Source: a virus. From it: 38,913 nucleotides of DNA. The notes below the pieces were generated by a model. That model made no database searches. It was not told the origin of the DNA and saw only the letters and a program-made list of their open reading frames with translations. Positions 5,263 to 36,418 of this stretch are shown here, piece by piece; the stretch's first letter is position 1; every line of letters starts with the position of its first letter. The stretch lies in IMG/VR virus record IMGVR_UViG_3300046655_001018, positions 1-38,913 of that record; one strand, written 5' to 3'. The translations under genes and the position numbers were made by a program.

Positions 5263-5300
5263 TAAGTTTTATTAAAAAAGCGTGTCCTAGCGCAATATTA

Positions 5301-5312: not shown

Positions 5313-5332
5313 CGTCTAAATAAATAAGTTAT

Positions 5333-5653: not shown

Positions 5654-5999
5654 TGCGGTTATAGTTAAACCGATTGAACTTGAAGAAACTACTTATGGGA
5701 ATATTATTGTCCCAGATGTAGGAAAAGAAAAAAATGAAACAGCAGAAATAATCTCAGTTGGTCCAGGTAAACCTACTATTACAGGAGAATTTATCCATAC
5801 TAAACTTAAAGTAGGAGATAAAGTTGTTTTACCAACAATGGGTTTTACAAAACTTCCATATGATGGAGAAGAGTATTATGTAGGCCCAGAAAACCAAATC
5901 CTAGCTAAAATTACTGAAACCATTGATGTTTCAGAAATATTAGAAGAAACTAAAGAATCATTAACCGAAGAAGAAATTAAAGATCTATCAAATGAGTAA
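5631..5999 (+). CDS. groES: Co-chaperonin GroES-like protein
   Basis: This 122-residue protein has the Cpn10 fold pattern: an N-terminal DAVIVKPIELEETT strand region (8-21), a mobile-loop region ending NIIVP (about 17-28), GPGKP at 44-48, VGDKVVLP at 61-68, and EYYVGPENQILAKI at 81-94. It would cap the GroEL ring. It is about 25 residues longer than a usual GroES because of an acidic C-terminal tail (98-122) rich in E. The gene overlaps both neighbours, and its last codons hold the GroEL start (ATGAGTAA). T4 brings its own co-chaperonin (gp31) but relies on host GroEL; this phage brings both. Confidence 0.95.
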   Translation: MALEALFDAVIVKPIELEETTYGNIIVPDVGKEKNETAEIISVGPGKPTITGEFIHTKLKVGDKVVLPTMGFTKLPYDGEEYYVGPENQILAKITETIDVSEILEETKESLTEEEIKDLSNE

Positions 6000-7614
6000 A
6001 CAAGTTATATTAGGTTCAAAAGCTAGAACCAATTTAGTAAAAGGGATTGATGTATTGGCAGATGCCGTAGTGTCAACCTTAGGACCAAATGGAAGAAATG
6101 TAGTAATAGCAAACGAACAAGGAGCCCCTCAATCAACTAAGGATGGAGTTACTGTTGCTAAATCAATTACATTAAAAGACCCAAATCAAGAATTGGGAGT
6201 ACAGTTAGTAAAACAAGCTGCAATTAAAACAGCAGAAAAAGCAGGAGATGGAACAACTACTTCTACTTTACTAGCTAGAGAAATGATTAAAGCTGGATTA
6301 AATGCTTTAAATAATAATGAAAATGCAGTACAAATTAAAAGAGATATTGATACTACCGTTAAAGAAGTAGTAAATAATCTTAAAAATAATATTGCAGAAG
6401 ATATTTCAGGTGAAGAACAATTAGAACAAATTGCAACAATTTCTGCTAATAATGATCCTGAAACTGGGAAGTTAATTGCTACCGCAATTGAAAAAGTTGG
6501 AATGGAAGGGGTTGTTCATATTGAGGAGTCTAAAACAGGTGAAACGTATTTAGAAACTGTTGAAGGGTTACAGTTTGATAGAGGGTATAAATCACCTTAT
6601 TTTGTTACTAATAATAACACAATGACTTCTACATTAGAAAACCCCTTAATTCTAATTGCTGACCAGAAATTGACCCAAGTAAAAGAGTTATTACCTATTC
6701 TAGAAAGTGTATCTACTCAAGCCAGGTCACTTTTAATTATTGCTGAAGATATTGATAATGAAGCTTTAGCTACTCTTATTGTTAATAAAATGAGAGGTAC
6801 AATGAAAGTATGTGCTGTAAAGGCACCCGATTTTGGAGATAGACGTAAACTGGTCCTAGAAGATATTGCCATTACAACTGGAGGTGTAGTTTTTGATAAA
6901 CAAAAAGGAATGAAACTAGATAAATTTAGTTGGGATTGGTTTGGTGAAGCTCGAACAGTAACAATAGGAAAAGAACAAACAACAATTGTAGATGGAAAAG
7001 GAGGAATTGAACCAATTGAAGCACGTATTGAGGAGTTACAACAACAAGTCAGTAAAGCAACAACGGCGTTCGAAACAGAAAAACTTCAAGAAAGACTCGC
7101 GAAATTCACAGGAGGAGTAGCGATTATTCATGTAGGTGGGAACACTGAAACTGAAATGAAAGAAAAGAAAGATAGAGTTGATGACGCGTTACACGCAACA
7201 AAAGCTGCTATTGAAGAAGGAATTGTACCCGGGGGAGGAACAGCATTATTATATGCCTCTTCAGGCTTAGAAGCTAAGACAACAGGGGCTCAAATTGTAA
7301 TTGAAGCATGTGCTAAACCATTTAACCAAATTTTAGTTAATGCTGGTTATGATGTCATTAAAGGACAAATTTTAGCAGACCAGTTGGTAAATTCAGGTAA
7401 TGATACTTGGGCTGGATATAATATTAAAACAGACGAAACAGTAGATATGAAAAAAGCTGGTATTATTGACCCAACTAAAGTGGCTAGAACAGCACTACAA
7501 AATGCAGCATCAGTTGCAGGTACAGTATTACTTACAGAATGTACAGTAGTAAATGAACCAAGTGAAGACAACGATCAACCCCAAATGGATCCATCCATGA
7601 TGGGGATGATGTAA
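5992..7614 (+). CDS. groEL: Chaperonin GroEL (60 kDa)
   Basis: The gene is full length at 540 residues. Visible ATPase signatures are LGPNGRNV at 30-37, DGVTVAKSI at 51-59, GDGTTT at 85-90, and RVDDALHATKAAIEEGIVPGGG in the second equatorial part, which contains the Asp equivalent to E. coli D398. The apical domain is intact, including VKAPDFGDRRK. The tail is MDPSMMGMM, a short Met/Gly tail like that of bacterial GroEL. It should form the ATP-driven folding ring with the preceding GroES. No frameshift or missing domain is seen, so it is probably functional. It is translationally coupled to groES. Confidence 0.97.
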   Translation: MSKQVILGSKARTNLVKGIDVLADAVVSTLGPNGRNVVIANEQGAPQSTKDGVTVAKSITLKDPNQELGVQLVKQAAIKTAEKAGDGTTTSTLLAREMIKAGLNALNNNENAVQIKRDIDTTVKEVVNNLKNNIAEDISGEEQLEQIATISANNDPETGKLIATAIEKVGMEGVVHIEESKTGETYLETVEGLQFDRGYKSPYFVTNNNTMTSTLENPLILIADQKLTQVKELLPILESVSTQARSLLIIAEDIDNEALATLIVNKMRGTMKVCAVKAPDFGDRRKLVLEDIAITTGGVVFDKQKGMKLDKFSWDWFGEARTVTIGKEQTTIVDGKGGIEPIEARIEELQQQVSKATTAFETEKLQERLAKFTGGVAIIHVGGNTETEMKEKKDRVDDALHATKAAIEEGIVPGGGTALLYASSGLEAKTTGAQIVIEACAKPFNQILVNAGYDVIKGQILADQLVNSGNDTWAGYNIKTDETVDMKKAGIIDPTKVARTALQNAASVAGTVLLTECTVVNEPSEDNDQPQMDPSMMGMM

Positions 7615-11546: not shown

Positions 11547-12986
11547 ATGAATAAAAGTTTTGAACACCTTCCTAAAGATAAAAGGAAGAAAATATTATTA
11601 ATATGTGATGATATTAGAGTACATTCTGGAGTAGCTACGGTTGCCAGAGAAATTGTGATTCATACATGCCACCATTTTAATTGGGTTCAAATAGCAGGAG
11701 CAATTAAACACCCAGATAAAGGAAAAGTTTTTGACCTTAATGAAAGTGTAACAAAAGAAACTGGAGTTAAAGATCCTTCAGTTGTATTATACCCAGTTGA
11801 TGGTTATGGAAATGCTGATCTACTTAGAGGAGTATTAAAAAATGAAAATCCCGATGCCATAATGTTAATTACTGATCCTAGATATTTCGGTTGGTTATTT
11901 AATATGGAACATGAAATTAGAAAAAACATTCCCATTACCTATTTAAACATTTGGGATGATTACCCAGCTCCAATGTATAATAAACCATACTATGAAGCCT
12001 GTGATTTATTAATGGGTATTTCAAAGCAAACAGTTAACATTAATAAATTAGTATTAGGGAAAGATAAAGGTAATAGATTATTTAAATACATCCCTCATGG
12101 GTTGAATCCTGAAGTATATAAACCCATAGATAAAAATGATAAAGAATTTATTAAATTTAAAACAAACTTCTTTAAAAAAGACATTCCAGAATTTGTAGTA
12201 TTCTTTAACTCTAGAAATATTAGACGTAAACAAATCCCTGACACAATGTTAGCTTTTAGAGCCTTTTTAGATTCACTACCTAAAGAAAAAGCTGATAAAT
12301 GTAAAATGGTATTACACACTGAAGCAGTAACTGATCACGGAACGGATTTGTATAAAGTAAAAGAATATTTCTTTGATGAAAGTTATCCAAACTCCATAGT
12401 ATTTTCTCATAAAAAATTATCACAAAAAGAATTAAATTTTTTATATAATATTGCTGATGTTCAAATGTTATTAACTTCAAACGAAGGATGGGGATTAACT
12501 ATTACTGAAGCTATATTAGCTGGCACTCCTATCATAGCTAATACTACAGGTGGTATGCAGGATCAAATGAGATTTGAAGATAAAGATGGTAACTGGTTTG
12601 TACCTAGCCCTGATGTTCCTTCTAACCATAGAGGTACTTATAAAAAACATGGTGAATGGGCTTTCCCAGTTTACCCAACTTCAAGATCAATACAAGGTTC
12701 ACCTCCAACACCTTATATATTTGATGATAGATGTAGGTGGGAAGATGCTACTGAAAGGTTAATTGAAGTTTACAATTTATCTCCTCAGGAAAGATCAAAA
12801 AGGGGCTTAAAAGGTAGAGAATGGGCTATTTCAAATGAAGCTGGTTTTACTGCATCCCACCAAGCAGAAAGAGTAATGGAAGCTTTTACTAAATTATTTG
12901 AAGTATGGAAACCTAGAGAAAAATACCAAGTAATAAATGCAACTGAATATAAAGGAAAATTTTTAACTCATAAAATATATTATTAA
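11547..12986 (+). CDS. Glycosyltransferase, GT-B fold (GT4-like)
   Basis: The 479-residue protein has the two-domain GT-B pattern. The N-terminal domain starts KILLICDDIRVHSGVATVAREI, where glycine-rich loops bind the acceptor. The C-terminal domain carries the EX7E motif, E313 to E321 (NEGWGLTITEAILAGTP), which contacts the nucleotide-sugar donor in GT4 enzymes. Donor and acceptor cannot be told. It ends in a TAATG junction with a second glycosyltransferase, so the two may act in sequence on the same glycan. Confidence 0.9.
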   Translation: MNKSFEHLPKDKRKKILLICDDIRVHSGVATVAREIVIHTCHHFNWVQIAGAIKHPDKGKVFDLNESVTKETGVKDPSVVLYPVDGYGNADLLRGVLKNENPDAIMLITDPRYFGWLFNMEHEIRKNIPITYLNIWDDYPAPMYNKPYYEACDLLMGISKQTVNINKLVLGKDKGNRLFKYIPHGLNPEVYKPIDKNDKEFIKFKTNFFKKDIPEFVVFFNSRNIRRKQIPDTMLAFRAFLDSLPKEKADKCKMVLHTEAVTDHGTDLYKVKEYFFDESYPNSIVFSHKKLSQKELNFLYNIADVQMLLTSNEGWGLTITEAILAGTPIIANTTGGMQDQMRFEDKDGNWFVPSPDVPSNHRGTYKKHGEWAFPVYPTSRSIQGSPPTPYIFDDRCRWEDATERLIEVYNLSPQERSKRGLKGREWAISNEAGFTASHQAERVMEAFTKLFEVWKPREKYQVINATEYKGKFLTHKIYY

Positions 12987-14272
12987 TGAATAAACCTATT
13001 TTTATAATAAGTTCCCCTTTTGACACCTACTCAGGTTACGGGGCTCGTTCTCGGGATATAATAAAATCCATTATTAACACAGGTAAGTATGAAGTAAAAC
13101 TACTTCCACAAAAATGGGGTAATACTTCTTGGGATTTCTGTAAGGACCACCCTGAATGGGGGTATCTATATGATCACAAAATTACTCAAATAACAAGCCA
13201 ACCTGATATTTGGATGCAAATCACTATCCCTAATGAATTCCAATCAGTAGGAAAATATAATATAGGATGTACCGCGGGGATAGAAGCTACAGCTTGTAAA
13301 CCTGAATGGATTGAAGGGTTAAACAGAATGGATTTTAATTGGGTATCTTCTACTTTTGCAAAAGGGATGTTTGAAAGTATCAATTATGAAAAAAGAAACA
13401 AACAAACAAAAGCATTAGAAGGTATTATAAAAGTAGAAAAACCTATTGAAGTAGTATTTGAGGGGGCTAATTTAGACATTTATAAACCTATATCTAAAAG
13501 TGAAATTAAAACTATTAGTTTAGATGAAGTAAAAGAATCATTTTGTTTTTTAAATGTAGGACATTGGATCCAAGGAGACTTTGGTCATGATAGGAAAAAT
13601 TTAGCTTTATTAATAAAAGCTTTTTATGAAACTTTTAAAGGACCAAGTAAACCAAAACCTGCTTTAATTTTAAAAGCCTCTATGGGTGTAGCTTCTTATA
13701 TAAGTAGAGATAATATTCTAGATAAAATTAAACATATAAGGGAATCAGTAAACTCTTCGTCACTACCAAATATTTATTTACTTAATGGTGAGTTTAATGA
13801 TAAAGAAATAAATGAATTGTACAACAATCCTAAAGTTAAAGCTATGGTAAGTTTAACTAAAGGAGAAGGATATGGTAGACCCTTATTAGAATTTAGCCTT
13901 ACAGGTAAACCTATTATAGCATCTGGGTGGTCCGGACATTTAGATTTTCTCAAACCTAATTTTAGCACTTTACTCCCAGGTACATTAGAAAATGTGCATC
14001 CTAGTGCTGCTAACAATTGGTTAATAAAAGATGCTCAATGGTTTAAACCAGATGAGGGGGCTATTGGAAGAAATTTAAAAGATTGTTATAAAAAATATAA
14101 ACAGTTTTCACTTAAATCAAAACAACAAAAACAATTTAGTAAATCAAATTTTAACTATAATAAGATGGAAGAATTAATAGACAAACTATTAGAATCTTCA
14201 ATACCTAAATTCCCCCAACAAGTAGAATTTAAATTACCTGAATTGCAATTGCCTAAATTAAAAGCTTTATAA
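12986..14272 (+). CDS. Glycosyltransferase, GT-B fold (GT4-like)
   Basis: The 428-residue protein is a GT-B enzyme with IISSPFDTYSGYGARSRDI at the N-terminus. The EX7E motif E294 to E302 lies in KGEGYGRPLLEFSLTGKPII. A C-terminal tail after about 390 is rich in K, Q, P and L and is probably flexible (QLPKLKAL end). It directly follows another GT-B gene with overlapping start and stop. Confidence 0.9.
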   Translation: MNKPIFIISSPFDTYSGYGARSRDIIKSIINTGKYEVKLLPQKWGNTSWDFCKDHPEWGYLYDHKITQITSQPDIWMQITIPNEFQSVGKYNIGCTAGIEATACKPEWIEGLNRMDFNWVSSTFAKGMFESINYEKRNKQTKALEGIIKVEKPIEVVFEGANLDIYKPISKSEIKTISLDEVKESFCFLNVGHWIQGDFGHDRKNLALLIKAFYETFKGPSKPKPALILKASMGVASYISRDNILDKIKHIRESVNSSSLPNIYLLNGEFNDKEINELYNNPKVKAMVSLTKGEGYGRPLLEFSLTGKPIIASGWSGHLDFLKPNFSTLLPGTLENVHPSAANNWLIKDAQWFKPDEGAIGRNLKDCYKKYKQFSLKSKQQKQFSKSNFNYNKMEELIDKLLESSIPKFPQQVEFKLPELQLPKLKAL

Positions 14273-14273
14273 T

Positions 14274-14711
14274 ATGAATTTTGACCAATTAAAAGAATGC
14301 ACTAGATGTGGATCTGATGCTTGTTATAACCAAGAAGTAACAAAAGATATTGCTATTGAATATTGCATAGGATGTGGTTTTCAACATAATTCAGCTATGA
14401 TTAGTGGTAGTCAATTTCTCCAAGAACAACTTGAGGTTTTACCTGAACTTTATAAAGAATTAATGGATGAGGAAGTAGAATCTGGTAAAATATGGGTTCC
14501 AACTTCAGTTAATATTAATGATAAAGGGTTAATATTTGCTCATGGTACTGGGAGAGATAATTGGCATTGGGCAGCCGTAAAAGTAGTTCCTTGTACTATA
14601 GAAGAAAAAGAGAGATTAAAAAATGATTTTAAAGCAGATATGTCTACTTTAGTAAAATATGACGAAGGAGACTTTATGGATGCTTTATCATATATTGAAG
14701 TTTTACCATGA
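14274..14711 (+). CDS. Zinc-ribbon-containing hypothetical protein
   Basis: This 145-residue protein carries C9-x2-C12 and C31-x2-C34 in an N-terminal zinc ribbon. An acidic region with KIWVPTSVNINDKGLIFAHG and WHWAAVKVVPC follows. No family recognised. It overlaps the next gene by ATGA and is embedded in the glycan block. Confidence 0.75.
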   Translation: MNFDQLKECTRCGSDACYNQEVTKDIAIEYCIGCGFQHNSAMISGSQFLQEQLEVLPELYKELMDEEVESGKIWVPTSVNINDKGLIFAHGTGRDNWHWAAVKVVPCTIEEKERLKNDFKADMSTLVKYDEGDFMDALSYIEVLP

Positions 14712-15148
14712 AGTTAGGAAATTTAACAGAAAAAATAATATCTATACTTACTTTAGGTCAAGGTAAAAGGTTAGCTATGTATATAGCTAAATTAAGAGGT
14801 AAGGAAGATTGTGGTTGTAACAGAAGAAAAGAAAAATTAAATAATATAAATTTTAAATCTATGTCAATTTCCCAAAAACCTCTTAATTTAGATTGGTCAT
14901 CTAAATGGAATAAAATTAGGGGTCAAGTATCTTGTGCTTGTGAATTTAATTATGCTATTTTACAAGTTAAAGATAAACAAAATAATTTAATACATGAAGA
15001 AAAAATTATGGCTTCCCCTTATATGAGTGGTCAAATTAAAAATAAAGATATTTCCTTACCTTCATTTCTAACCCCTCATTCTTTTAGTTTAAAATTTCAT
15101 AAAAAACACGAAAATACTTTTATTAATCCTGTAAATATAGATTTATAA
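14708..15148 (+). CDS. Hypothetical protein with CGC motif
   Basis: In this 146-residue protein the N-terminal third is helical and basic with RLAMYIAKLRGKEDCGCNRRKEKLN. I recall this DCGC-x-RKE-x-LN type segment from small proteins of phages and gut bacteria, without a known role. The C-terminal part looks like a beta-rich domain. Gene ends overlap both neighbours. Confidence 0.7.
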   Translation: MKLGNLTEKIISILTLGQGKRLAMYIAKLRGKEDCGCNRRKEKLNNINFKSMSISQKPLNLDWSSKWNKIRGQVSCACEFNYAILQVKDKQNNLIHEEKIMASPYMSGQIKNKDISLPSFLTPHSFSLKFHKKHENTFINPVNIDL

Positions 15149-15780
15149 TGAAAATAAGTTATGGAATAACTGTTTGTAATGAACATCAAGAATTACTTTA
15201 TTTAATTGAATTTCTTAACCCTATTATTGATAATGAAGATGAAATTGTAGTTGTCTATGATCAGAATAGAGTTACTGAGCAAGTAATGAAAATTCTAGAA
15301 GATCATAAGGAACAAGTTAGATATTTTCCATTTAATTTTAAACAAAATTTTTTAGAAAATAAAAACTATTTAGGAAGTGAATGTAAAGGAGATTATATTT
15401 TTCAAATAGATGCTGATGAAATTCCAAATGAATTTTTAGTTAAAAATTTAAAAACTATATTAAGCTCAAATAATGTTGATATGCTAGTAGTGCCTAGAAA
15501 AAATATAGTAAAGGGGCTAACCCAGGAACATATCAATAGATGGAGATGGAATGTAAATGAAAAAGGATGGGTTAATTGGCCTGACCAACAAAAAAGAATT
15601 TATCGTAATGATCCTTTAATAGCATGGAGAGGACATCAAATCCATGGGATGGTTACTGGGTATGAAACATATGTATCACTTCCTTTAAGTGAAGAATTTA
15701 GTATTACTCATAATAAAACTATAGAACGTCAAGAAAAACAAAATAGTAGATACCATAAAATTGAAACTAACCAATTATGA
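15148..15780 (+). CDS. Glycosyltransferase, GT-A fold (GT2-like)
   Basis: The 210-residue enzyme begins KISYGITVCNEHQELLYLIEFL, the usual GT2 start. The metal/donor DxD motif is D88-A-D90 within FQIDADEIP. The C-terminus RQEKQNSRYHKIE matches the helical end of small GT2 enzymes. It overlaps genes on both sides, so it is made with the glycan block enzymes. Confidence 0.87.
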   Translation: MKISYGITVCNEHQELLYLIEFLNPIIDNEDEIVVVYDQNRVTEQVMKILEDHKEQVRYFPFNFKQNFLENKNYLGSECKGDYIFQIDADEIPNEFLVKNLKTILSSNNVDMLVVPRKNIVKGLTQEHINRWRWNVNEKGWVNWPDQQKRIYRNDPLIAWRGHQIHGMVTGYETYVSLPLSEEFSITHNKTIERQEKQNSRYHKIETNQL

Positions 15781-16604
15781 TAAAATTTAAAGTAGGAGTT
15801 ATAGGAAATGGTTTTGTAGGAGAAAGCCAGGCATTTGCTTTTTCCCCAACAACTGATTTAAGGATTTATGATATAGACCCTAATAAAGCTACCCATACTA
15901 AAGAAGAATTAGATGAATGTGACTTTATTTTTGTATGTGTTCCAACACCTATGTACAAAAATGGGTCCCAAGACATCTCATTTATAGAGAAAGTATTCAA
16001 AGAAGCAGTTGAAGGTCCTATTTATATTATCAAGTCCACAATACTACCAGGTTCAACTAAAAATCTTCAAAATCAATATCCAAATTTATCTATTATATTT
16101 TCTCCTGAGTTTTTAACTGAACGTACTGCTAAGTTAGATATGTTAACTCAAGCTAGAATTGTACTAGGGGGCAATAGTAAATTAACTAATAAAGCAGCTA
16201 AATTATTTGAACAACGTTTTATGAATAAACATATAATCAAAACCGATTCAACCACAGCTGAATTAATTAAGTATATGAATAATACATTCTTTGCTACCAA
16301 AGTTAGTATTATAAATGAATTTAAATTATTAGCTGATAAATTAGATGCTAATTGGGAAGATGCCTTATATGGGTTTGCTTCTGACGGTAGGGTAGGAGAT
16401 AGCCATTTACATGCACCCGGACCCGATGGTAAGTTAGGATATGGGGGTACTTGTTTTCCTAAAGATGTTAATGCTTTAATAACATTAGCTAGGGAGTTAA
16501 ACACTCCTCTTAATACTATAGAAGGAGGATGGACAACAAATTTACAAGTTAGACCAGAACAAGATTGGAAAACAGATAAAGGAAGGGCAGTAAGTGATGA
16601 TTAA
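15777..16604 (+). CDS. UDP-glucose/GDP-mannose dehydrogenase family protein, short form
   Basis: The 275-residue protein has an NAD-binding N-terminus (VGVIGNGFVGESQAFAF) and VPTPMYKNGSQDI. A STILPGST segment follows, then SPEFLTERTA and LIKYMNNTFFATKVS. The catalytic Cys is C226 in GYGGTCFPKDV. Typical family members have about 400-450 residues. Here the C-terminal UDP-binding domain is almost entirely missing, though the catalytic set is kept. It may oxidise a nucleotide sugar to a uronic acid in a reduced form, or may need a partner. The next gene starts inside its last codons. Confidence 0.88.
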   Translation: MIKFKVGVIGNGFVGESQAFAFSPTTDLRIYDIDPNKATHTKEELDECDFIFVCVPTPMYKNGSQDISFIEKVFKEAVEGPIYIIKSTILPGSTKNLQNQYPNLSIIFSPEFLTERTAKLDMLTQARIVLGGNSKLTNKAAKLFEQRFMNKHIIKTDSTTAELIKYMNNTFFATKVSIINEFKLLADKLDANWEDALYGFASDGRVGDSHLHAPGPDGKLGYGGTCFPKDVNALITLARELNTPLNTIEGGWTTNLQVRPEQDWKTDKGRAVSDD

Positions 16605-17235
16605 AACATACAATGATATAATAAAAAGTATTACTACCAACAAACCTTTTGCCTTTACTAGATGGGGGGACGGAGAATGGTTAAACATACGAAAATCCCC
16701 TGGAAGTAACTGTGATGGTAATTTATACTATCATGATTTAGGTGATGAATTAAAAAGTATTGTAGAGACTAAACAAAATTATATTCTAGGTGCACAAGAC
16801 AAAAAATGGAACTTGCCTTCTGATGTAGATAATTACCCAAACCAAGATTGGATTGATGCTGATATATTTCATAAAGCAAGCATGGGTAATAAAATTTTTC
16901 TACTTGAAGAAGCTCTCCAATCAAAGCATGTAGTTTATATAGGCAATAAAGATCTTAAACATTTATCTTTTATAAATGAATTTATAGAAATACCTCCTAA
17001 TAATGTTTGGTTAGAAAGAGAAGATGTGTTTAATAAAGTTACCCAAACAATAGAAAAAAATAAACATAAAGTATATTGTTTTTCTGCGGGAATGGCCACA
17101 AATGTATTCATAGATAAATTATGGCATTTTAATATGACTCAAACTTATATAGATGTGGGTAGTGTATTTGATCCTTATGTTGGTAAAATTACTAGATCAT
17201 ATCATAAAAATTTAAAAACTAAATTTAATAATTAA
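16597..17235 (+). CDS. Putative GT-D-fold glycosyltransferase (DUF1792-like)
   Basis: I choose the ATG at 16597; a GTG three bases earlier is possible. The N-terminal FTRWGDGEW motif (about 20-28) matches the RxGDGE motif of the DUF1792/GT-D glycosyltransferases. YCFSAGMATNVFIDKLWHF and YIDVGSVFDPYVG near the end also fit that fold. Length 212. It would transfer a sugar to a glycan or glycoprotein; the donor is unknown. Confidence 0.75.
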   Translation: MIKTYNDIIKSITTNKPFAFTRWGDGEWLNIRKSPGSNCDGNLYYHDLGDELKSIVETKQNYILGAQDKKWNLPSDVDNYPNQDWIDADIFHKASMGNKIFLLEEALQSKHVVYIGNKDLKHLSFINEFIEIPPNNVWLEREDVFNKVTQTIEKNKHKVYCFSAGMATNVFIDKLWHFNMTQTYIDVGSVFDPYVGKITRSYHKNLKTKFNN

Positions 17236-17243
17236 AATAAAAA

Positions 17244-17843
17244 ATGGATAGATCTCATATATTACAAAATTTTATAAATAAAAATGATTATAAATCCTAT
17301 TTAGAAATAGGAGTAGATAGTGGGTGGTTATTTAAAAAAATAAATATTCCTCTTAAAGAAAGTGTTGACCCTGCAAAAGGTCAATATGCAAATGCTAAAC
17401 CAACCTATAAGATAACCTCTGATGAATTCTTTAAAACATATAAAGACAAAAAATATGATATTATCTTTATAGATGGGTTACATGAGTCCCACCAGGTGGA
17501 TAAAGATATAAAAAATTCAATAAATGTTTTAAATGAAGGTGGAAAAATTGTAATGCATGATTGTTCACCCTCAACAAAGAGAGCAGAAACAGTACCACGA
17601 CCTGGACCTGGGGTTTGGAATGGTGATGTTTGGAAATCATTTGTTAAATTTAATTATCATAACCACCAAGATTATAATTGTTATGTTATAGATACAGACC
17701 AGGGTGTTGGGGTCATAGAAAAAGGTGTAGGACAATGTGATTACCAACTTCCAAAAGAATTAGAATATGAATGGTTAGTTGAAAATAGAAAACAGGCTTT
17801 AAATTTAATTAGTAAAGATGAATTTAGTAGAAGAATTTCATGA
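17244..17843 (+). CDS. Class I SAM-dependent methyltransferase (Methyltransf_24-like)
   Basis: The 199-residue enzyme has motif I as YLEIGVDSGWL (18-28). An acidic residue end of strand 2 follows in SVDPAKG, then YDIIFIDGLHESHQVDKDI (about 70-88) and LNEGGKIVMHDCSP. This is typical of small methyltransferases in polysaccharide gene clusters. The methyl acceptor is probably a sugar, by context only. Confidence 0.84.
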   Translation: MDRSHILQNFINKNDYKSYLEIGVDSGWLFKKINIPLKESVDPAKGQYANAKPTYKITSDEFFKTYKDKKYDIIFIDGLHESHQVDKDIKNSINVLNEGGKIVMHDCSPSTKRAETVPRPGPGVWNGDVWKSFVKFNYHNHQDYNCYVIDTDQGVGVIEKGVGQCDYQLPKELEYEWLVENRKQALNLISKDEFSRRIS

Positions 17844-18603
17844 ATTTACTTGGGATATGATTAGGGCTTTACCAAAAGCTTATTATTTACATTCTCGAGG
17901 AACCCCTGTAGAAGTACATTGTAAACCTGGTTTATCTGAATTATATTATTTTGCTGATAAAATAGTTGAATTGGATAAATTTCATGGTTATAATGATTCT
18001 ATATCATATAATAATGAAGCCCCTGATTACGCTTTAAAAGAATGGCTTCCACCACCACTAAAAGAAAGATTTAAAGGTAAAGTTGCATTTACGAAACCAA
18101 CAGTAGTTATTCAAAATAAATATGCTTTAGAATGGCTTACTGGTGTATATAATTATTTTCCAACCGAAGTATTAGGGGAATTATTTGATTACCTTAAAGA
18201 GGATTATGATATTATATATATCAGACCCAAAGGTAATACAAAGAATTATTATCAAGATGAAAATGAAATCAAACCCTTTAAAGATTATGAATTTATTGAA
18301 GAATATCATCCTTATGTTTATACCATAGATAAATTTATAAACCAATACCCAGAACTTAGTTATAATACACTCCAAATGCTACTACAGTCAACATCAGATA
18401 AACATATTACAGTTTCAGGGGGTAATGCGTGTTTAAGTGCTTATTTTGGGGGTGATGTGTTTATATTTGATAGTCCTGAGGGTAAGGGTGCAGGTAGAGG
18501 AGTATGGAAAGATAATTCTTGGTTGTCTATGTTAGGGGGAGCTAATATATTTGGGTTTAATGATTATGCAACATTAATAGATAAAGTAAAATTAAATTGG
18601 TAA
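17818..18603 (+). CDS. Possible glycosyltransferase-like protein
   Basis: The 261-residue protein begins inside the methyltransferase gene. It has AYYLHSRGTPVEVHCKPGLSEL at the start and a later HITVSGGNACLSAYFGGDVFIFDSP stretch. That reminds of the donor domain of GT-B enzymes such as heptosyltransferase-like proteins, but I see no decisive motif. Position between the methyltransferase and epimerase supports a glycan role. Confidence 0.6.
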   Translation: MNLVEEFHEFTWDMIRALPKAYYLHSRGTPVEVHCKPGLSELYYFADKIVELDKFHGYNDSISYNNEAPDYALKEWLPPPLKERFKGKVAFTKPTVVIQNKYALEWLTGVYNYFPTEVLGELFDYLKEDYDIIYIRPKGNTKNYYQDENEIKPFKDYEFIEEYHPYVYTIDKFINQYPELSYNTLQMLLQSTSDKHITVSGGNACLSAYFGGDVFIFDSPEGKGAGRGVWKDNSWLSMLGGANIFGFNDYATLIDKVKLNW

Positions 18604-18606
18604 TAT

Positions 18607-19632
18607 ATGAGTAAAACAGTATTAATAACAGGTGTAGCTGGATTATTAGGTAGTCGTTTAGCTGATTGGATAATTAATAACCAACCAAATACAACAGTAA
18701 TTGGAGTCGATGACCTCAGCGGTGGTTTTGAAGAAAATATAAATCCAAAAGTAAAATTTTGGCAAATGAATCTAATAGAACATCCTATTGAAAATATATT
18801 TGAGGCACATGATATAGATTATGTATTTCATTTTGCAGCTTATGCTGCTGAAGGATTATCACCTTTTATCCGTGCTTATAATTATGATAATAATTTAAAA
18901 GCAACTGCCCGCCTAGTTAATGAATGTATTAAAAAAGATGTTAAACGATTGGTATTTACGTCTACATTAGCTGTGTATGGTCATGGTTATGGTGGGATAT
19001 TTAATGAAACCCAACAACAAGCACCAATAGATCCTTATGGGGTTGCAAAATATGCCTGTGAGATGGATATTCAAATTGCGGGTGAACAACATGGGTTAGA
19101 TTGGTGCATTATTAGACCACATAACGTTTATGGTATAAAACAAAACATTTGGGATAAGTACAGAAATGTATTAGGTATTTGGATGTTCCAATATTTAAAT
19201 GGAATGGATATAACTGTATTTGGTGATGGTGAACAAACGAGAGCATTTAGTTATATAGATGATAGTTTAAAACCTCTTTGGAATGCTGCTATTAAACCTG
19301 AAGCTAGTAAAGAAATAATTAACTTGGGAGGTATTGAAGAAATTTCAATAAATAAGGCAGCTGAAACCTTGATTGAGGTGTTACAAAAAGAAGAAGGTAT
19401 AGATGATTTTAAAATCCCAATTAAGTATTTAGAGGCAAGGCATGAAGTAAAACATTCTATCCCAACACATCAAAAATCAATTGATATATTGGGATTTGAA
19501 CATAAAACAGATTTAAAAAAGGGATTAACTGAAATGTGGAAATGGGCTAAACAACAACCTATGCGTGAAAGATTTGTATGGCCTAACTACGAATTAGAAA
19601 AAGGAATTTATAGTTTTTGGAAAAATAAATAA
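18607..19632 (+). CDS. NAD-dependent epimerase/dehydratase (extended SDR)
   Basis: The 341-residue enzyme has the NAD-binding GxxGxxG at 9-15 (GVAGLLG), FHFAAYAAEG, a Ser/Thr in FTSTLAVYG, and the catalytic Y144-x3-K148. RPHNVYG and DITVFGDGEQTRAFSYIDD are the usual substrate-side signatures of UDP-glucose 4-epimerase-like enzymes. It would interconvert a nucleotide sugar for the neighbouring transferases; the exact substrate is open. Confidence 0.92.
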   Translation: MSKTVLITGVAGLLGSRLADWIINNQPNTTVIGVDDLSGGFEENINPKVKFWQMNLIEHPIENIFEAHDIDYVFHFAAYAAEGLSPFIRAYNYDNNLKATARLVNECIKKDVKRLVFTSTLAVYGHGYGGIFNETQQQAPIDPYGVAKYACEMDIQIAGEQHGLDWCIIRPHNVYGIKQNIWDKYRNVLGIWMFQYLNGMDITVFGDGEQTRAFSYIDDSLKPLWNAAIKPEASKEIINLGGIEEISINKAAETLIEVLQKEEGIDDFKIPIKYLEARHEVKHSIPTHQKSIDILGFEHKTDLKKGLTEMWKWAKQQPMRERFVWPNYELEKGIYSFWKNK

Positions 19633-19635
19633 TTA

Positions 19636-20658
19636 ATGAAAGTTTTAATTTGTTTTAGCACTTATTCTGAATGGATAAAATTAAAACCATTAATAAAATT
19701 AATGGATAAGAAAGAATACAAACTTTTCTTTACAGGACAATATTCAGACTTATTATCTAAGATAAAAGTAGATTATACAATTAAATTACCCAAACCTTTA
19801 GATAATAGTTTAAATTCTATAATGGCTGAATGTATGTTACAATTCCCAACATCTCAATTTGATACTGTGCTACTTCAAGGAGATAGTAGTGCTACATTAG
19901 GTTGTGCTTTAGCAGCTTATAATAAAGGCATTAGAACAATTCATTTAGAATCAGGATTAAGAACTCAGGATATAACAGGATCTTACCCTGAAGAAGGGTA
20001 TAGGCAAATGATATCTCGAATAACTGAGATAAATTTTTGCCCTACATCAACTTCATTAGGTCATCTTATTAGTGAAAGAGTAGAAGGGGATGGGTTTGTA
20101 GTTGGTAATTCAATTTTAGATAATTTAGTAGAACATGAAAGTAAAAGAGAATATACAAACCAAGTATTAGTAACTCTCCATAAAATCCAAAACCATAAAT
20201 TATTAGATATTTGGTTTAAAAAAATAAATAAAATTGCCTTAAATAACCCTAATTTAGAATTTATTTTTCCTACACACCCCTTACCTATAATTAAAAAATA
20301 CAAACATTTACTTCCAAATATAAAAATTATAAACTTCCTCCCTCATGATAAGTTTTTAAAAATTTTATTAAAATGTAAATTAGTAATTACTGATAGTGGG
20401 GGGGTAATGCAAGAAGCAAGTTATTTTAATAAAAAAGTAATAGTATGTAAAAAAACATCAGAACATCCTGAAGGTTTTTATAGTGGTCATTTACATTTAT
20501 GTTCTACCCCTGATTTTTTATCTCCTTTATTTAATAAACTAATAAAAGATTATAAAATACAAATTAGATGTCCATATGGTGAAGGAAGAACCTCAGAAAA
20601 TACATATGAAATTATAAAACGTTCAGCCCCTCAATTTAAAAATTTAAATAAATTATGA
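19636..20658 (+). CDS. wecB: UDP-N-acetylglucosamine 2-epimerase-like (WecB family)
   Basis: The 340-residue protein carries family signatures: QGDSSATLGCALAAY, IRTIHLESGLRTQD, PEEGYRQMISRITEINFCPT, VVGNSILDNLV, then FPTHPLP and LVITDSGGVMQEASYF. These match the UDP-GlcNAc 2-epimerase fold, which makes UDP-ManNAc. The N-terminus lacks the usual GTRPE signature (it has CFSTYSEWIKLKP), so substrate preference may differ. Confidence 0.87.
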   Translation: MKVLICFSTYSEWIKLKPLIKLMDKKEYKLFFTGQYSDLLSKIKVDYTIKLPKPLDNSLNSIMAECMLQFPTSQFDTVLLQGDSSATLGCALAAYNKGIRTIHLESGLRTQDITGSYPEEGYRQMISRITEINFCPTSTSLGHLISERVEGDGFVVGNSILDNLVEHESKREYTNQVLVTLHKIQNHKLLDIWFKKINKIALNNPNLEFIFPTHPLPIIKKYKHLLPNIKIINFLPHDKFLKILLKCKLVITDSGGVMQEASYFNKKVIVCKKTSEHPEGFYSGHLHLCSTPDFLSPLFNKLIKDYKIQIRCPYGEGRTSENTYEIIKRSAPQFKNLNKL

Positions 20659-21401
20659 AATTAAAAGTATATACAGCATTATTTGCGGAAGAAAATTTAC
20701 CTTTAAGTGATGTTGGAGAATTTTATCCCTTTACCCATAAAAAAGAGGATGTTAAGTACATAGCTTTTACTAATAGAGCAGATTTGGTATCAAATTTTTG
20801 GGATGTTATTTATACCCCAATTGAAAAAGGATTATCCCCTAGAATGATGTCAAGAAAAGTTAAATGGAATCCTACTCAATATTTAAATAATTTCACTCAT
20901 ACTATATGGATGGATTCACAGTGCTATTTTAAAATTGAACCTAAAGCAATTATAAATTATTTTTTACAAAGTGAATTTCATACTGCAATACATCACCATA
21001 CAGACTTACAAAGCACATATTCAGAAGGAATGTTGCAGTGTTATTATTATTGTTTAGATAAACCTTCAATTATTAACCCTCAAATGGAAAAATATTTTAA
21101 AGAAGGATTACCTTATAAATATGACCATTATGAAACAGGTATTTTAATTAGAAAAAACTGTGATGAATCAAACCAACTATCAGAAAATGTATGGAACGAA
21201 TTACAAAATCACAGTATTAGAGACCAATTAAGTACCCCCTATTGTGTATTTAAAGCTAGACAAAATGGAGATAAAGGTATAAAAACTATACCTGAGTCTT
21301 TTACAGCCCATAAAGGTGGTTTACCCTTACCTAAATCTCAAATATTTTTTACAGTACCAAAACCAACAGAAAAACTTAAAGAGAATTTGGATAGTAGATA
21401 A
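20655..21401 (+). CDS. DUF616-like glycosyltransferase domain protein
   Basis: The 248-residue protein has the pattern of the DUF616 glycosyltransferase family: SRKVKWNPTQYL, then THTIWMDSQCYF, then ETGILIRKN, and VWNELQNHSIRDQLSTPYCVFK near the end. The paired D (WMDS) and DQ positions are those conserved in the family. It closes the glycan block. Its last codons contain the TTTG -33 box of the next promoter. Confidence 0.75.
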   Translation: MKLKVYTALFAEENLPLSDVGEFYPFTHKKEDVKYIAFTNRADLVSNFWDVIYTPIEKGLSPRMMSRKVKWNPTQYLNNFTHTIWMDSQCYFKIEPKAIINYFLQSEFHTAIHHHTDLQSTYSEGMLQCYYYCLDKPSIINPQMEKYFKEGLPYKYDHYETGILIRKNCDESNQLSENVWNELQNHSIRDQLSTPYCVFKARQNGDKGIKTIPESFTAHKGGLPLPKSQIFFTVPKPTEKLKENLDSR

Positions 21402-27338: not shown

Positions 27339-27556
27339 AAAAACAAGTTTTACATTATTGCTTGGATCAGGCAAAAAGTTTTTATAAATTGGGTGAACGT
27401 GATAAAGCAAGAGACTATTGTGATATGGGAATTGGTTATGTAGCTGCAAAAAAAGAAGATGGTTGGGACGGAGAAGACCTAATTGAAGACGTTAAAATTA
27501 ACTTATGGTTAGAACGTTTTTGGATGTTTTTAGAAAATAAAAATTTAATGTTGTGA
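27326..27556 (+). CDS. Hypothetical helical protein
   Basis: In this 76-residue product the segment LHYCLDQAKSFYKLGERDKARDYCDMGIGYV resembles a single TPR-like helix pair. Only one repeat is seen, so a TPR call would be weak. The start is preceded by AAGGTT. The stop overlaps a GTG start for the next gene. Confidence 0.7.
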   Translation: MAKIKKQVLHYCLDQAKSFYKLGERDKARDYCDMGIGYVAAKKEDGWDGEDLIEDVKINLWLERFWMFLENKNLML

Positions 27557-27705
27557 GTAGAATAGAAGAATTAGTATATAGTGCCCATGAACATGGTAAA
27601 CGAACTGACTTATTTGATAAGGTTACTAGAATCAAAACCCAAAACCCAAATATGAAATTAGAGGAGGTTTATGATAGAGCATACCAACAAGTAATGAATA
27701 CGTAG
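27553..27705 (+). CDS. Small hypothetical protein, GTG start
   Basis: A GTG at 27553 overlaps the previous stop (GTGA) and opens a 50-residue frame: SRIEELVYSAHEHGKRTDLF, then DKVTRIKTQNPNMKLEEVYDR and AYQQVMNT. It is polar and helical, and ends 2 nt before the methylglyoxal synthase gene. Confidence 0.6.
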   Translation: MSRIEELVYSAHEHGKRTDLFDKVTRIKTQNPNMKLEEVYDRAYQQVMNT

Positions 27706-27707
27706 AT

Positions 27708-28082
27708 ATGAAGTTTGCATTAATAGCACATGATAACAAGAAAGCAGATATGGTAGCTTTCGTATCAAAAAGATTACCATTCTTTAATAGAAAGGATGTA
27801 CAAATTGTTACTACTGGGACCACAGGTAAAAAAGTTAAACATGCAGGAATAAAGGATGTTGAGACTGTTAATTCTGGTCCCATAGGTGGAGATGCTGAAA
27901 TTGCTGCTATGGTGGTAAGAGGAGAAATTACCGCAGTATTATTTATGAGAGACCCACTCGATAAACACCCTCATGACGTTGATATTAATATGTTAATGAG
28001 ACTCTGTGACGTTCATGATATTCCCCTCGCTACTAATTATAGAACAGCAAGTATATTAATTAAATGGTTTAAAAATAAATGA
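27708..28082 (+). CDS. mgsA: Methylglyoxal synthase
   Basis: MgsA converts dihydroxyacetone phosphate to methylglyoxal and phosphate. This 124-residue protein shows the family set: IAHDNKK at 6-12 with His8, TTGTTG at 35-40, SGPIGGD at 56-62, DPL at 82-84, and PHDVD at 88-92. D62, D82, H89 and D92 match E. coli D71, D91, H98 and D101 with a constant offset of nine. It is shorter than E. coli MgsA (152): the C-terminal region after ATNYRTAS is reduced, so the Arg near the E. coli C-terminus has no clear counterpart. It sits among tiny phage genes and overlaps the next by ATGA. Confidence 0.92.
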   Translation: MKFALIAHDNKKADMVAFVSKRLPFFNRKDVQIVTTGTTGKKVKHAGIKDVETVNSGPIGGDAEIAAMVVRGEITAVLFMRDPLDKHPHDVDINMLMRLCDVHDIPLATNYRTASILIKWFKNK

Positions 28083-28438
28083 AAATAAATAGTCTATTTA
28101 TAGGGTTAACATTATTTTGTATTGCTCATATACTTACTTTCTACCAACTTAATGGTCAGTTTTTAAAAACAACAGATTGGTTTAAAAAGAATGAATTTAT
28201 TGTAGCAGCATTTGGAATTATATTATCTTTTTTTTATATTTGGGGAACTAAATATACTGTACAAGGTATGGATGGGCTATTATGGCCTGCTCGTTTTATT
28301 GGGTTTGGAATAGGAATGGTATTTTATGCTTTATTAGTTAATTACCATTTTAATGAAGGTATTAGTACTAAAACTTGGATTAGCTTACTATTATCAGTTT
28401 TATTAATTTGTATACAAGTATTATGGAAAAACAAATAG
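28079..28438 (+). CDS. Small integral membrane protein, about four helices
   Basis: The 119-residue product has hydrophobic segments near 6-25, 40-57, 68-88 and 100-116. The size and four-helix layout recall small multidrug-type transporters, but no signature is visible, so I leave the role open. It follows methylglyoxal synthase by ATGA overlap and may belong functionally with it. Confidence 0.75.
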   Translation: MKINSLFIGLTLFCIAHILTFYQLNGQFLKTTDWFKKNEFIVAAFGIILSFFYIWGTKYTVQGMDGLLWPARFIGFGIGMVFYALLVNYHFNEGISTKTWISLLLSVLLICIQVLWKNK

Positions 28439-30199: not shown

Positions 30200-30422
30200 G
30201 ATTGATTTACATGGTTTATCTCATGACCAAGCAATTTCTAAAGCAGAATTATTTTTAATTGGAGCATCATTTGATAAAAATATGCATGTGGAGATAATAA
30301 CAGGAAAGTCTGGTAATATGAAAGAAAATATAATTAAAGAAATACTTGACCCCTATAAATTTGATTATTATATTCCACCACATAATACAGGCATGATAAT
30401 AGTTACACAAAATGAATTATAG
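30189..30422 (+). CDS. Smr-domain protein
   Basis: The 77-residue protein is essentially one Smr (small MutS-related) domain: IDLHGLSHDQAISKAELFL at 5-23, then VEIITGKSGNMKENIIKEIL, and a C-terminal strand. Smr domains nick DNA or cleave RNA. Here the family's HGxGxG motif appears as TGKSGN, so catalysis is uncertain. Confidence 0.85.
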   Translation: MQHKIDLHGLSHDQAISKAELFLIGASFDKNMHVEIITGKSGNMKENIIKEILDPYKFDYYIPPHNTGMIIVTQNEL

Positions 30423-31278
30423 TTTACCAAATTTTTTGATAATAGGAGTAATGAAAGGGGGAACTACCTCTTTAAATATTGCTTTGGCTCAAGGTAAAGA
30501 TAGATTTACAGTTAAAGCTAATACTAAACAAGAAACATTTAATTCCAATCCAGATATAAACCCAAATATGTTTATTGGGGGGATGGGTGCCTTAAATCAT
30601 AAAGAATTAGATTTTTTCTCTAAAGATAAAAATTATAAACATGGGATTGATATATATAAAAGATTCTTTGATGTTAATAATTCAGAAACTTGTACCCCAA
30701 ATCCTATATTAATAGGGGAATGTAGTCCTAGTTATTTTACTTTAGATGAGTACCCAGGGGATATTATAAGTAGAATTCAAAGATATTTACCAGATATTAA
30801 AATTATTTTAAGTTTAAGAGACCCTATTGAAAGAGCCTATTCCCACTTTATTCATATGAATAGAAATAATTGGCATTATGATAATCTTTATAAAAATAAA
30901 ACTTTTAGAGAAATAGTAATGGAGGGATGGAAACACAAATCACCTAATTATGTAATAACCAGATCATTTTACTCTAAAAATTTACTAAAATATAAATCAG
31001 CATTTGGTGATAACCTATTTGTAACTACACAAGAAAATCTTTTAAATGATCCAGTGTTTGAATTAAATAAAATATATGATTTTTTAGGTGTAAATAAACC
31101 CCCATATGAGGATAAACAATTTAAAGCAAATAGAAACATTGATCATAATCCTGATTATTCTATAAAAAATATGGATAAGGAAATAAAGGAATATTTAAGA
31201 GAATTATTTAGATCAGATGTAACTCAAACCGTAAAATTATTACCTCAAGTAGATTTTAGTTATTGGAATAAATATTAA
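30412..31278 (+). CDS. PAPS-dependent sulfotransferase
   Basis: The 288-residue enzyme has the 5'-phosphosulfate-binding loop IIGVMKGGTTSL (10-21). The 3'-phosphate-binding site is R136 and S144 in SLRDPIERAYSHF. FLGV near 215-225 is also typical. It would move sulfate from PAPS to a hydroxyl, most likely on a sugar given the nearby glycosyltransferases, though a host small molecule or protein is possible. Confidence 0.91.
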   Translation: MNYSLPNFLIIGVMKGGTTSLNIALAQGKDRFTVKANTKQETFNSNPDINPNMFIGGMGALNHKELDFFSKDKNYKHGIDIYKRFFDVNNSETCTPNPILIGECSPSYFTLDEYPGDIISRIQRYLPDIKIILSLRDPIERAYSHFIHMNRNNWHYDNLYKNKTFREIVMEGWKHKSPNYVITRSFYSKNLLKYKSAFGDNLFVTTQENLLNDPVFELNKIYDFLGVNKPPYEDKQFKANRNIDHNPDYSIKNMDKEIKEYLRELFRSDVTQTVKLLPQVDFSYWNKY

Positions 31279-31504: not shown

Positions 31505-32641
31505 ATGGATAATAAAAAATTAACATTTCACGTTTTAGGTTTACCTCATACAAAAACAACTAAAGAATTTGTTGCATGTGCCTATACTCAAAAAGTTTGG
31601 AAATTTTGTAAAATGATGGGGGAGAGAGGACATACCTTGTATCATTATGGTCATGAAGAAAGTAACCCTCCATATGCTGAAAATGTTACTGTTATTACAA
31701 ATAAGATATGGGAAACAGTATATGGCACCCATGACTATAAAAGTAAACTTTTTACTTATAACACTCAAGATGAAGCATATCAAACATTTTATAAAAATGC
31801 TATAGATGAAATAAAAAAGAGAAAATCAAAAAATGATTTTATATTACCATTTTGGGGTGGAGGTGTTAGACCAATATGTGATGCTCACCCTGATTTAATC
31901 ACAGTTGAACCTGGAATTGGTTATGCTGCGGGTCATTGGGCTAAATGGAAAGTATTTGAATCATACGCAATATATCATGCTTATTGTGGTTTAAGTGCTG
32001 TAGGAACATGTAAACAGAATAACTATGATGTTGTTATACCTAATTATTTTGATTTGGATGAATTTGAATTTAATGATAAAAAAGAAGATTATTTCTTATT
32101 TTTAGGTAGGGTTTATGATGGAAAAGGAGTAAATATAGCAATGCAAGTCACTGAACATTTAGGATATAAATTAAAAATAGCAGGACAAATAGATAGTGAA
32201 GGCCCATATGCTAAAAAAGAATTCCCTCCTCATGTTGAATTTGTTGGTTATGCTGATGTGGAAAAGAGAAAAGAATTAATGAAAAATGCTAAAGGCTCAT
32301 TTTTAGCTTCTCAATATGTAGAACCATTTGGGGGGGTACAAATTGAAAATTTATTATGTGGAACCCCAACAATAACATCAGATTGGGGGGCTTTTACTGA
32401 AAATAATATTAATGGGGTTACAGGATACAGATGTAGAACATTTGATGATTATTTACAAGCTGCTATAAAAATTAACAATGGAGAAATTGATTATAATGCT
32501 TGTAGAAAATATGGTGAAAAATTTTCATTAGAAGCTATTGCTCCTAGATATGAAAAATTCTTTAGGGATATTTTAAATGTATACACTACTAATGGGTGGT
32601 ATCATACTGAAGTAAAAAAAAAAGAATTGATAACCCTTTAA
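31505..32641 (+). CDS. Glycosyltransferase, GT-B fold (GT4-like)
   Basis: The 378-residue protein has FHVLGLPHTKTT at the start. FLGRVYDGKGVNIAMQV at about 199-215 opens the C-terminal donor domain. The EX7E motif is E273 to E281 in EPFGGVQIENLLCGTPTI. Its last codons cross a run of ten A (32614-32623) right before the stop, and the following glycosyltransferase frame is open across this same run in the -1 frame, see the findings. Confidence 0.9.
   Translation: MDNKKLTFHVLGLPHTKTTKEFVACAYTQKVWKFCKMMGERGHTLYHYGHEESNPPYAENVTVITNKIWETVYGTHDYKSKLFTYNTQDEAYQTFYKNAIDEIKKRKSKNDFILPFWGGGVRPICDAHPDLITVEPGIGYAAGHWAKWKVFESYAIYHAYCGLSAVGTCKQNNYDVVIPNYFDLDEFEFNDKKEDYFLFLGRVYDGKGVNIAMQVTEHLGYKLKIAGQIDSEGPYAKKEFPPHVEFVGYADVEKRKELMKNAKGSFLASQYVEPFGGVQIENLLCGTPTITSDWGAFTENNINGVTGYRCRTFDDYLQAAIKINNGEIDYNACRKYGEKFSLEAIAPRYEKFFRDILNVYTTNGWYHTEVKKKELITL
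32614..32623 (+). promoter_or_regulatory. A10 slippery run between two glycosyltransferase frames
   Basis: Ten A in a row occur 16 nt before the stop of the upstream gene. The upstream frame reads K-K-K-E-L-I-T-L-stop, and the -1 frame leads without a stop into the next glycosyltransferase. Such runs are known sites of slippage by ribosome and polymerase. A sequencing or assembly error in the run would look the same. Confidence 0.5.
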
Positions 32642-35165: not shown

Positions 35166-35567
35166 ATGAAAAAAGGAATTATAGCAGGTAATTTTGACGT
35201 AATCCATCCAGGTTATCTTAAAATGTTTAAAGAAATAAAAGATAATTGTGAAGATGTTTATATACTTTTACACGATGATCCAACAATTGAAAGGCCTGAA
35301 AAGAAAAAACCAGTACTTTCAGTTCAAGAGCGTAGAGATATCCTCGAAAATTTTTTTGAATGTCCCATTATACTTAGCTATAATACAGAAGCAGAACTTT
35401 TGTTCCTAATTAAGAGTATTGATCCTGATGTGAGATTCTTAGGAGATGATTATATAGATAAACGATTTACTGGTGATGATCTAGGAATACATATTCATTG
35501 GATATCTCGTTCACACGGGTGGAGTACAACTAAATTTAAAAAATTAATAGGTGAAACATTAAAATAA
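35166..35567 (+). CDS. Nucleotidyltransferase (cytidylyltransferase-like, HxGH superfamily)
   Basis: The 133-residue protein starts GIIAGNFDVIHPGYLKMF, the GxFDxxHxGH motif in an HPGY form (14-17). It ends WISRSHGWSTTKFKKLI, in place of the RTxGISTT motif. These are the nucleotide-binding motifs of the glycerol-3-phosphate cytidylyltransferase group. It would activate a phosphorylated metabolite as a CDP or ADP derivative, fitting an adjoining sugar epimerase. Confidence 0.87.
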   Translation: MKKGIIAGNFDVIHPGYLKMFKEIKDNCEDVYILLHDDPTIERPEKKKPVLSVQERRDILENFFECPIILSYNTEAELLFLIKSIDPDVRFLGDDYIDKRFTGDDLGIHIHWISRSHGWSTTKFKKLIGETLK

Positions 35568-35584
35568 CCACAAATAATAAGTTA

Positions 35585-36418
35585 ATGAAACGTATATTAG
35601 TAACAGGAGCAGGTGGATTTATAGGAAGTAATTTAATGAACTACTTGGCATTAGATAAAACAATATCAATACAAGGTATAGATAATAACCCCCGTATTGA
35701 GAATGAGTACATGCTTAATTTAGATATAAAAAATATAAATAAATTAGCCTGGAAACCTGATGTGATTTACCATTTAGCAGCCCAATCTAGGGTTCAACCA
35801 TCGTTTGATGATCCAAAAGCAAGCACAGAAGATAATGTAATGGGTACTTTAGCAGTATTAGAATATGCTAAAAAACTTAATTGCAAAGTAGTATATGCAG
35901 GCTCAGCTTCCAGACATTTTGACCACTCATCTTCACCTTATGCCACTACAAAATATATGGGTGAAACACTTTGCAAAATGTATAAGAAATGTTTTGACAT
36001 GGATATAGAAATCGCCAGATTCTATAATGTATATGGTTTTAATGAATATCTACACCCAACAGAGGGCAATGTAATTGGTATTTGGAGATATAATATTAAA
36101 AATAATTTGAGATGTCAAATTGTAGGTGATGGGAATCAAGAGCGTGATTTTATCCATGTACAAGACATTGTTGAAGGACTAGTTGCTATTGGAGATGGGA
36201 TTTCAAGTCATGATGATGCTTGGGAATTAGGAACAGGTAGAACAACTAATATAAATGATTTAGCAACTATGTTTCATGAAAAATATGGAACCGAATTTGA
36301 TTGGGTTAATGACCAAAAAGGCAACGTACGCAAATCAGTATTAGTAAATAAAGATGCTTATGAAATATTAGGTTGGAGCCCTAAAAGAAAGTTAGTAGAT
36401 TATATAATGTCATTATGA
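35585..36418 (+). CDS. NAD-dependent epimerase/dehydratase (extended SDR)
   Basis: The 277-residue enzyme has TGAGGFIGSNL (GxxGxxG, about 7-17), YHLAAQSRVQPSFDDP, AGSASR as the Ser position, catalytic Y119-x3-K123 (PYATTKYMGE), FYNVYG and GNQERDFIHVQDIV. It is shorter than usual UDP-sugar epimerases (about 310-340), mainly in the C-terminal part. It lies 17 nt after the nucleotidyltransferase, so both probably act in one sugar pathway. Confidence 0.91.
   Translation: MKRILVTGAGGFIGSNLMNYLALDKTISIQGIDNNPRIENEYMLNLDIKNINKLAWKPDVIYHLAAQSRVQPSFDDPKASTEDNVMGTLAVLEYAKKLNCKVVYAGSASRHFDHSSSPYATTKYMGETLCKMYKKCFDMDIEIARFYNVYGFNEYLHPTEGNVIGIWRYNIKNNLRCQIVGDGNQERDFIHVQDIVEGLVAIGDGISSHDDAWELGTGRTTNINDLATMFHEKYGTEFDWVNDQKGNVRKSVLVNKDAYEILGWSPKRKLVDYIMSL

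Follow-up and report, generated by a model that had tools for sequence, protein, structure and literature searches.

Methylglyoxal synthase (MGS; EC 4.2.3.3), encoded by mgsA, converts dihydroxyacetone phosphate (DHAP) into methylglyoxal and inorganic phosphate. The E. coli enzyme is a homohexamer showing allosteric inhibition by phosphate, a property that is not claimed here for all MGSs. The roles of Asp71, His19, His98, Lys23, Ser65, Thr45-Gly49 and Gly66-Pro67 in MGS are described in the active-site passages of PMC7843640, where thermophilic MGSs are also described as shorter toward the C-terminus and the MGS of Oceanithermus profundus as short and active. Viral mgsA is already known. In a 2021 study of Lake Baikal viromes, the gene was listed as a viral auxiliary metabolic gene (AMG) on a 120-kb scaffold (virotype, Caulobacter phage Cr30; share of reads, up to 8.8% in a single sample; PMC8066274), and a brine-pool study named it among AMGs under methane metabolism (PMC11252502). 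In the sections of the Baikal study that concern it, the gene is listed without residues, phylogeny or host link, and it is likened to the present gene by description, not by sequence. A characterised phage MGS was not found in the open-licence literature. Added here are the existence of one main viral clade, purifying selection acting on it, its membership of a short Bacteroidota type, and its exchange with bacterial chromosomes.

The window, i.e. the whole stretch of DNA analysed, is a virus record 38,913 bases long, with a GC content of 30%. DNA polymerase, clamp loader and exonuclease genes were recognized using PHROGs, and GroEL, a GroES-like protein and many sugar-nucleotide genes are present as well. 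The mgsA ORF (27708..28082, + strand) encodes 124 aa, with an ATG start and a TGA stop. It is located among phage genes on a viral contig and not on host sequence, which is the location expected of an AMG. Its GC content (0.344) is exceeded only by that of GroEL (0.351) among 14 window genes compared, and its third-position GC (0.224) is the highest of these 14 by a small difference (others 0.132-0.205). Directly upstream lies a small ORF of 50 aa (27553..27705, + strand) without a PHROG; in 12 of 56 distinct viral loci, its relatives lie no more than five genes away from mgsA. The start of a downstream ORF of 119 aa (28079..28438, + strand), hydrophobic by its letters, shares 4 bases with the mgsA stop (ATGA, 28079-28082); it had no match in Pfam or PHROG, and its relatives occur near mgsA in 7 of the 56 loci.

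Elsewhere in the window, a phage DNA polymerase (phrog_262) is carried as two ORFs (312-2021 and 2674-3630) with two small ORFs in between, covering profile positions 91-569 and 565-843, respectively; the gene is either split or interrupted. Hsp20-like, GroES-like and GroEL genes are clustered at 4846-7614, of which GroES and Hsp20 score under the NCBI cut-offs; GroES and GroEL are likewise adjacent in Flavobacterium phage immuto. A large set of glycosyltransferase-like, nucleotide-sugar dehydrogenase and epimerase genes (11547-21401, 31505-32641 and 35166-36418), together with a sulfotransferase gene at 30412-31278, possibly serves surface-glycan modification.

The original prediction had named the mgsA ORF a true phage MGS and had set against this a profile assignment to the MGS-like domains of carbamoyl-phosphate synthetase (CPS). 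Following this comparison, both profile and structure favour MGS. The protein matched the Pfam MGS profile PF02142 with 49.1 bits (cut-off 24.1) and the NCBIfam equivalog for methylglyoxal synthase, NF003559, with 146.8 bits (cut-off 84). For a second NCBI equivalog, TIGR00160, the score of 139.1 bits was under the cut-off of 146.9, which runs through the short MGS type: six of seven short bacterial-genome sequences passed (L350 just over) and one, from Flavobacterium (L126), was under with 144.4 bits, while of two further viral MGSs L020 was under (138.9) and L079 was at the cut-off. A sequence search of the PDB gave 11 matches at E <= 0.001, every one named methylglyoxal synthase, including 8u2v (1.2e-33) and E. 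coli 1b93 (3.1e-22). An AF2 model, built from a 51-row alignment, had a pLDDT of 94.7 and a pTM of 0.89. When searched with this model using Foldseek, the top 26 PDB rows were MGS (4.5e-15 to 1.5e-10), CPS following at 1e-5. Using VIA-align, Z was 18.6-24.5 for MGS structures (Thermus MGS 24.5, E. coli MGS 21.8), at most 13.6 for the CPS MGS domain and at most 10.4 for PurH. PF02142 is common to MGS and to the regulatory domains of CPS and PurH, and by this profile the 124-aa protein could be such a domain and not an MGS. We consider this practically negligible in probability and rejected it, as the NF003559 equivalog cut-off was passed, Foldseek and the VIA-align Z both placed the model much nearer MGS, and the protein is a stand-alone ORF carrying the catalytic Asp/His set, not part of a large CPS or PurH protein. 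Judged by sequence and model, the ORF thus belongs to the MGS family, with a predicted MGS fold and an apparently intact active site, and its product is very probably an active enzyme.

Residues were aligned to E. coli MgsA from MG1655 (NC_000913). His8 (codon at 27729..27731, + strand, as for all codons below) corresponds to His19 of E. coli, which stabilises O3 of DHAP, and Lys12 to Lys23. The TGTTG loop Thr36-Gly40 (27813..27827) corresponds to the phosphate-binding loop Thr45-Gly49, with Thr36 and Thr39 at the positions of Thr45 and Thr48; Ser56 and Gly57 match Ser65 and Gly66. Asp62 (27891..27893) aligns with the catalytic base Asp71, Asp82 (27951..27953) with Asp91, His89 (27972..27974) with His98, and Asp92 (27981..27983) with Asp101; for His19, the loop, Asp71 and His98, roles are those given in the active-site passages of PMC7843640. 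All catalytic positions are therefore kept, as is the complete phosphate-binding set (Lys23, the TGTTG loop and Ser65-Gly66, i.e. phage Lys12, Thr36-Gly40 and Ser56-Gly57). In E. coli numbering, His19, Lys23, Thr45, Thr48, Ser65, Gly66, Asp71, Asp91, His98 and Asp101 were invariant in all 94 distinct viral MGSs and in all 80 short-type MGSs from bacterial genomes; Thr47 was replaced by Asn in one of the 94. The claim of a constant offset to E. coli MgsA held for Asp71, Asp91, His98 and Asp101, which all have an offset of 9, but not for the whole protein: the offset is 11 through Lys23 (His19, Asp20 and Lys23) and 9 from Thr45 onward, a shift caused by an indel of two residues ahead of the TGTTG loop.

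The C-terminus had been described as shortened, and this is real: Arg150 of E. coli has no counterpart in the phage protein, in any of the 94 viral MGSs or in the 80 short-type sequences from bacterial genomes. A shortening by the phage was rejected since the nearest cellular MGS type is equally short; as the feature is common to the short Bacteroidota type, it alone gives no reason to suppose that the phage altered regulation. Searches of bacterial and archaeal genomes gave at least 592 relatives, the best 80 of which were nearly all from Bacteroidota, with extracted lengths of 120-139 aa, mostly 120-126 aa; Bacteroidota also own a long MGS type of about 150 aa or more. The short type, as in Flavobacterium, Algoriphagus and Winogradskyella, resembles the phage protein in length, in the insertion before the TGTTG loop and in having all catalytic residues and no Arg150 counterpart, at 51-62% identity. 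E. coli MgsA (1b93, 1egh) is 37% identical to the phage protein and alike in active site and fold (Z 21.8/21.5), but differs by its 152 aa, its C-terminal extension with Arg150 and the two-residue indel.

Compared to the short Bacteroidota type, the viral clade has Tyr111 (codon 28038..28040, + strand; Val120 in E. coli) instead of Pro, KRL at positions 21-23, and mostly Glu64 and Val91 where that type has Gln and Pro. At position 111, Tyr was found in 87 of 94 distinct viral MGSs and Pro in 64 of 80 short-type MGSs from bacterial genomes. Such signatures, i.e. Tyr111 and the KRLxFFN stretch, could mark a protein in which the MGS fold was kept and the substrate shifted to another phosphorylated sugar or to a sugar-nucleotide intermediate. 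All 58 rows of the first viral clade set have Lys21, Arg22 and Tyr111, and sugar-nucleotide genes are abundant in the window. A shifted substrate is nevertheless unlikely: all DHAP-contacting residues named in the active-site passages of PMC7843640 are kept, Tyr111 is not fixed in the wider viral set, and MGSs of the same type are found on bacterial chromosomes.

Scans of viral sequences with three queries gave 158, 324 and 177 viral relatives, the second query thus showing 324 viral stretches that encode relatives; 3 matches were obtained with E. coli MgsA as query and none with the single Flavobacterium sequence (L126). The best 80 of each of the three sets were analysed, and the viral sample therefore leans toward near relatives. 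As one contig was often fetched twice with other flanks, counts refer to distinct proteins and not to loci. In INPHARED, 22 records matched MGS, all unannotated and at <60% identity; they are named Listeria or Enterococcus phages or come from gut samples, and are likely bacterial carry-over. Flavobacterium phage immuto, a related isolate, was not among these 22. PHROGs held no family matching viral or cellular MGS, and BFVD held no MGS at E <= 0.001. Despite more than 300 viral stretches, standard phage annotation will thus tend to miss viral MGS.

In an IQ-TREE analysis of 56 viral, 80 short and 8 long rows plus E. coli, all 56 viral rows were placed on one branch (100/98) together with two sequences from bacterial genomes, L082 and L083. 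A clade made up of phages only was consequently rejected. Using FastTree on the 94 distinct viral MGSs, 89 were in one clade with L082, L083 and L142, and five (L273, L286, L310, L313 and L315) were elsewhere. In a thinned IQ-TREE analysis (60 rows, 38 viral), a 99/92 clade comprised 32 viral rows, six rows of the family of L082 and L083; six viral rows (L273, L281, L286, L287, L292 and L310) were outside and many forks were open, so the two analyses differ in detail on which viral rows fall outside. L273, which is of the E. coli-like type, had a very long branch in the thinned tree. This sequence, from an IMG/VR contig, is a long-type MGS with 62% identity to E. coli MgsA, and either was picked up separately by a virus or lies on a contig that was misclassified.

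The MGS rows of the L082 family, which consists of small-genome Bacteroidota, formed one group (97/92) nested in the viral clade in the thinned tree. Of 38 genomes of this family, 15 (L082 included) had a match to the MGS of L082, 14 at 71-100% and one at 53%. The L082 protein, from a genome titled Chitinophaga pinensis MAG, is 68% identical to the window protein, and differs from phage mgsA in its chromosomal setting. At the homologous locus L350, the neighbours are an RNase H-like gene, RuvX and peptide deformylase, and at L353 they are 3HCDH and L-PSP; these genes indicate a chromosome. The L082/L350 group has Tyr at position 111, where the other members shown carry Gln or Lys. For L083, a contig titled proteobacterium with a GC content of 0.66, the MGS was again 68% identical to the phage protein and two neighbours tested had no Pfam match. 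Three other genomes of its order had distant matches only (32-49%), and the MGS of L083 may have been acquired recently from the pool of phage-type genes. That L082 and L083 are phage contigs in bacterial bins is disfavoured by RuvX and deformylase at L350, by the GC content of L083 and by the 15 of 38 family genomes, less firmly so for L083. Since chromosomal MGSs of one Bacteroidota family fall within the viral clade, the trees indicate that mgsA was exchanged between phage and host. Transfer from phage to the L082 family would be the simplest reading, but with short alignments (126 columns) and open forks the reverse may also hold.

The mgsA frame was uninterrupted in 80 loci (best 80 of 158), L078 being cut at the contig edge. 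For dN/dS estimates, L072, L073, L075 and L080 (indel) and L078 (partial) were omitted. Of 1081 pairs, 103 were usable (dS 0.1-1.5; the other 978 were outside this range), with a median dN/dS of 0.118 and a maximum of 0.224; between window mgsA and L001, dN was 0.011 and dS 0.49. These sequence comparisons point to strong purifying selection on the viral MGS clade. A bacterial mgsA acquired by chance and useless to the phage is very unlikely and largely refuted by this selection, by the 80 loci without broken frames and by the maintenance of one clade across many divergent contigs. Agreeing with chance acquisition are the five sequences outside the main FastTree clade, which look like separate pick-ups, the varying location of mgsA, and the lack of an MGS in the nearest lineage, judged by the 14 contigs of 25 kb or more that carry the closest clamp loaders (14 of 80 loci; fragments). 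With immuto equally without a match, mgsA looks dispensable. In the lineage of the window phage, the gene appears from these comparisons to be accessory, with a varied neighbourhood.

Neighbours were counted in 56 distinct viral loci, three of the 94 entries (L220, L230 and L063) being omitted as the ORF picker gave no MGS frame. No conserved neighbour, and hence no operon partner, was found among these loci; thymidylate synthase (9/56) and an IMP-dehydrogenase-like gene (7/56; named from its letters, not by profile) were recurrent without being fixed. In L072 (2611-3953), a thioesterase-superfamily (4HBT) gene lies directly 3' of mgsA and is followed by thymidylate synthase; in L079 (5390-5803), an ORF resembling this thioesterase by letters only follows mgsA. 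In each of 20 mgsA-bearing viral records of 64-297 kb, many of them fragments, one mgsA copy was over the cut-off. ThyA was present in 12 of the 20, gp23 capsid in 13 and PhoH in 10. PhoH is frequent in large phages, and with its presence in half of these records phosphate stress is not specially indicated.

The PF00903 glyoxalase was found in none of the 20 records, many of which are fragments. This would fit a phage that uses an active MGS for its toxic electrophile, to damage host DNA and protein, to block growth, to act against competing phages or to elicit host stress responses. According to the toxicity passages of PMC7843640, methylglyoxal at millimolar concentration causes mutations and blocks the synthesis of proteins and nucleic acids. 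However, phage DNA would be damaged too, and an extra MGS would be no new poison since about half of Bacteroidota genomes own one (98 of 198 in a sample of the phylum to which Flavobacterium antarcticum belongs); in addition, among the neighbours scanned no linked immunity or toxin-like gene was present. Toxic use is therefore rather improbable, and it ranks above a shifted substrate, which in turn ranks above neutral carriage.

The nearest cellular MGSs among the matches listed, together with the 59% identity of the window GroEL to that of Flavobacterium phage immuto, suggest a member of the Bacteroidota as host, which is our best guess. A T4-related phage of Bacteroidota is the best explanation for the carrier.

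We favour, as the probable reading of these sequence data, that the phage carries a functional MGS as an AMG that frees phosphate and bypasses glycolysis. The enzyme would release phosphate from triose phosphate and, by a route that needs no phosphate and skips the phosphate-dependent lower part of glycolysis, drain the pool of the upper part, while host phosphate is being tied up by the phage in nucleotides and DNA. Methylglyoxal would be converted to lactate and then pyruvate by host enzymes. Its detoxification would be left to the host, a reliance suggested by the lack of a glyoxalase in the related records described above. Phosphate recovery, glycolysis bypass and a toxic or signalling use, all put forward in the original prediction, cannot be told apart by sequence. 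More speculatively, and with a good deal of doubt, the viral clade might be a distinct, long-maintained lineage tuned, by Tyr111, the KRL helix and the missing C-terminal arm, to work at phosphate levels that shut the regulated host enzyme, forcing a phosphate-releasing bypass of glycolysis, with at least one bacterial family having taken the phage version onto its chromosome.

If active, this MGS would give the phage a compact (124 aa) means to free phosphate and to redirect host carbon, at the cost of a toxic aldehyde. The carrier is a virus of aquatic bacteria, and related viruses share mgsA. The mixed viral and chromosomal clade to which the gene belongs provides a setting in which to study how genes move between Bacteroidota and their phages.
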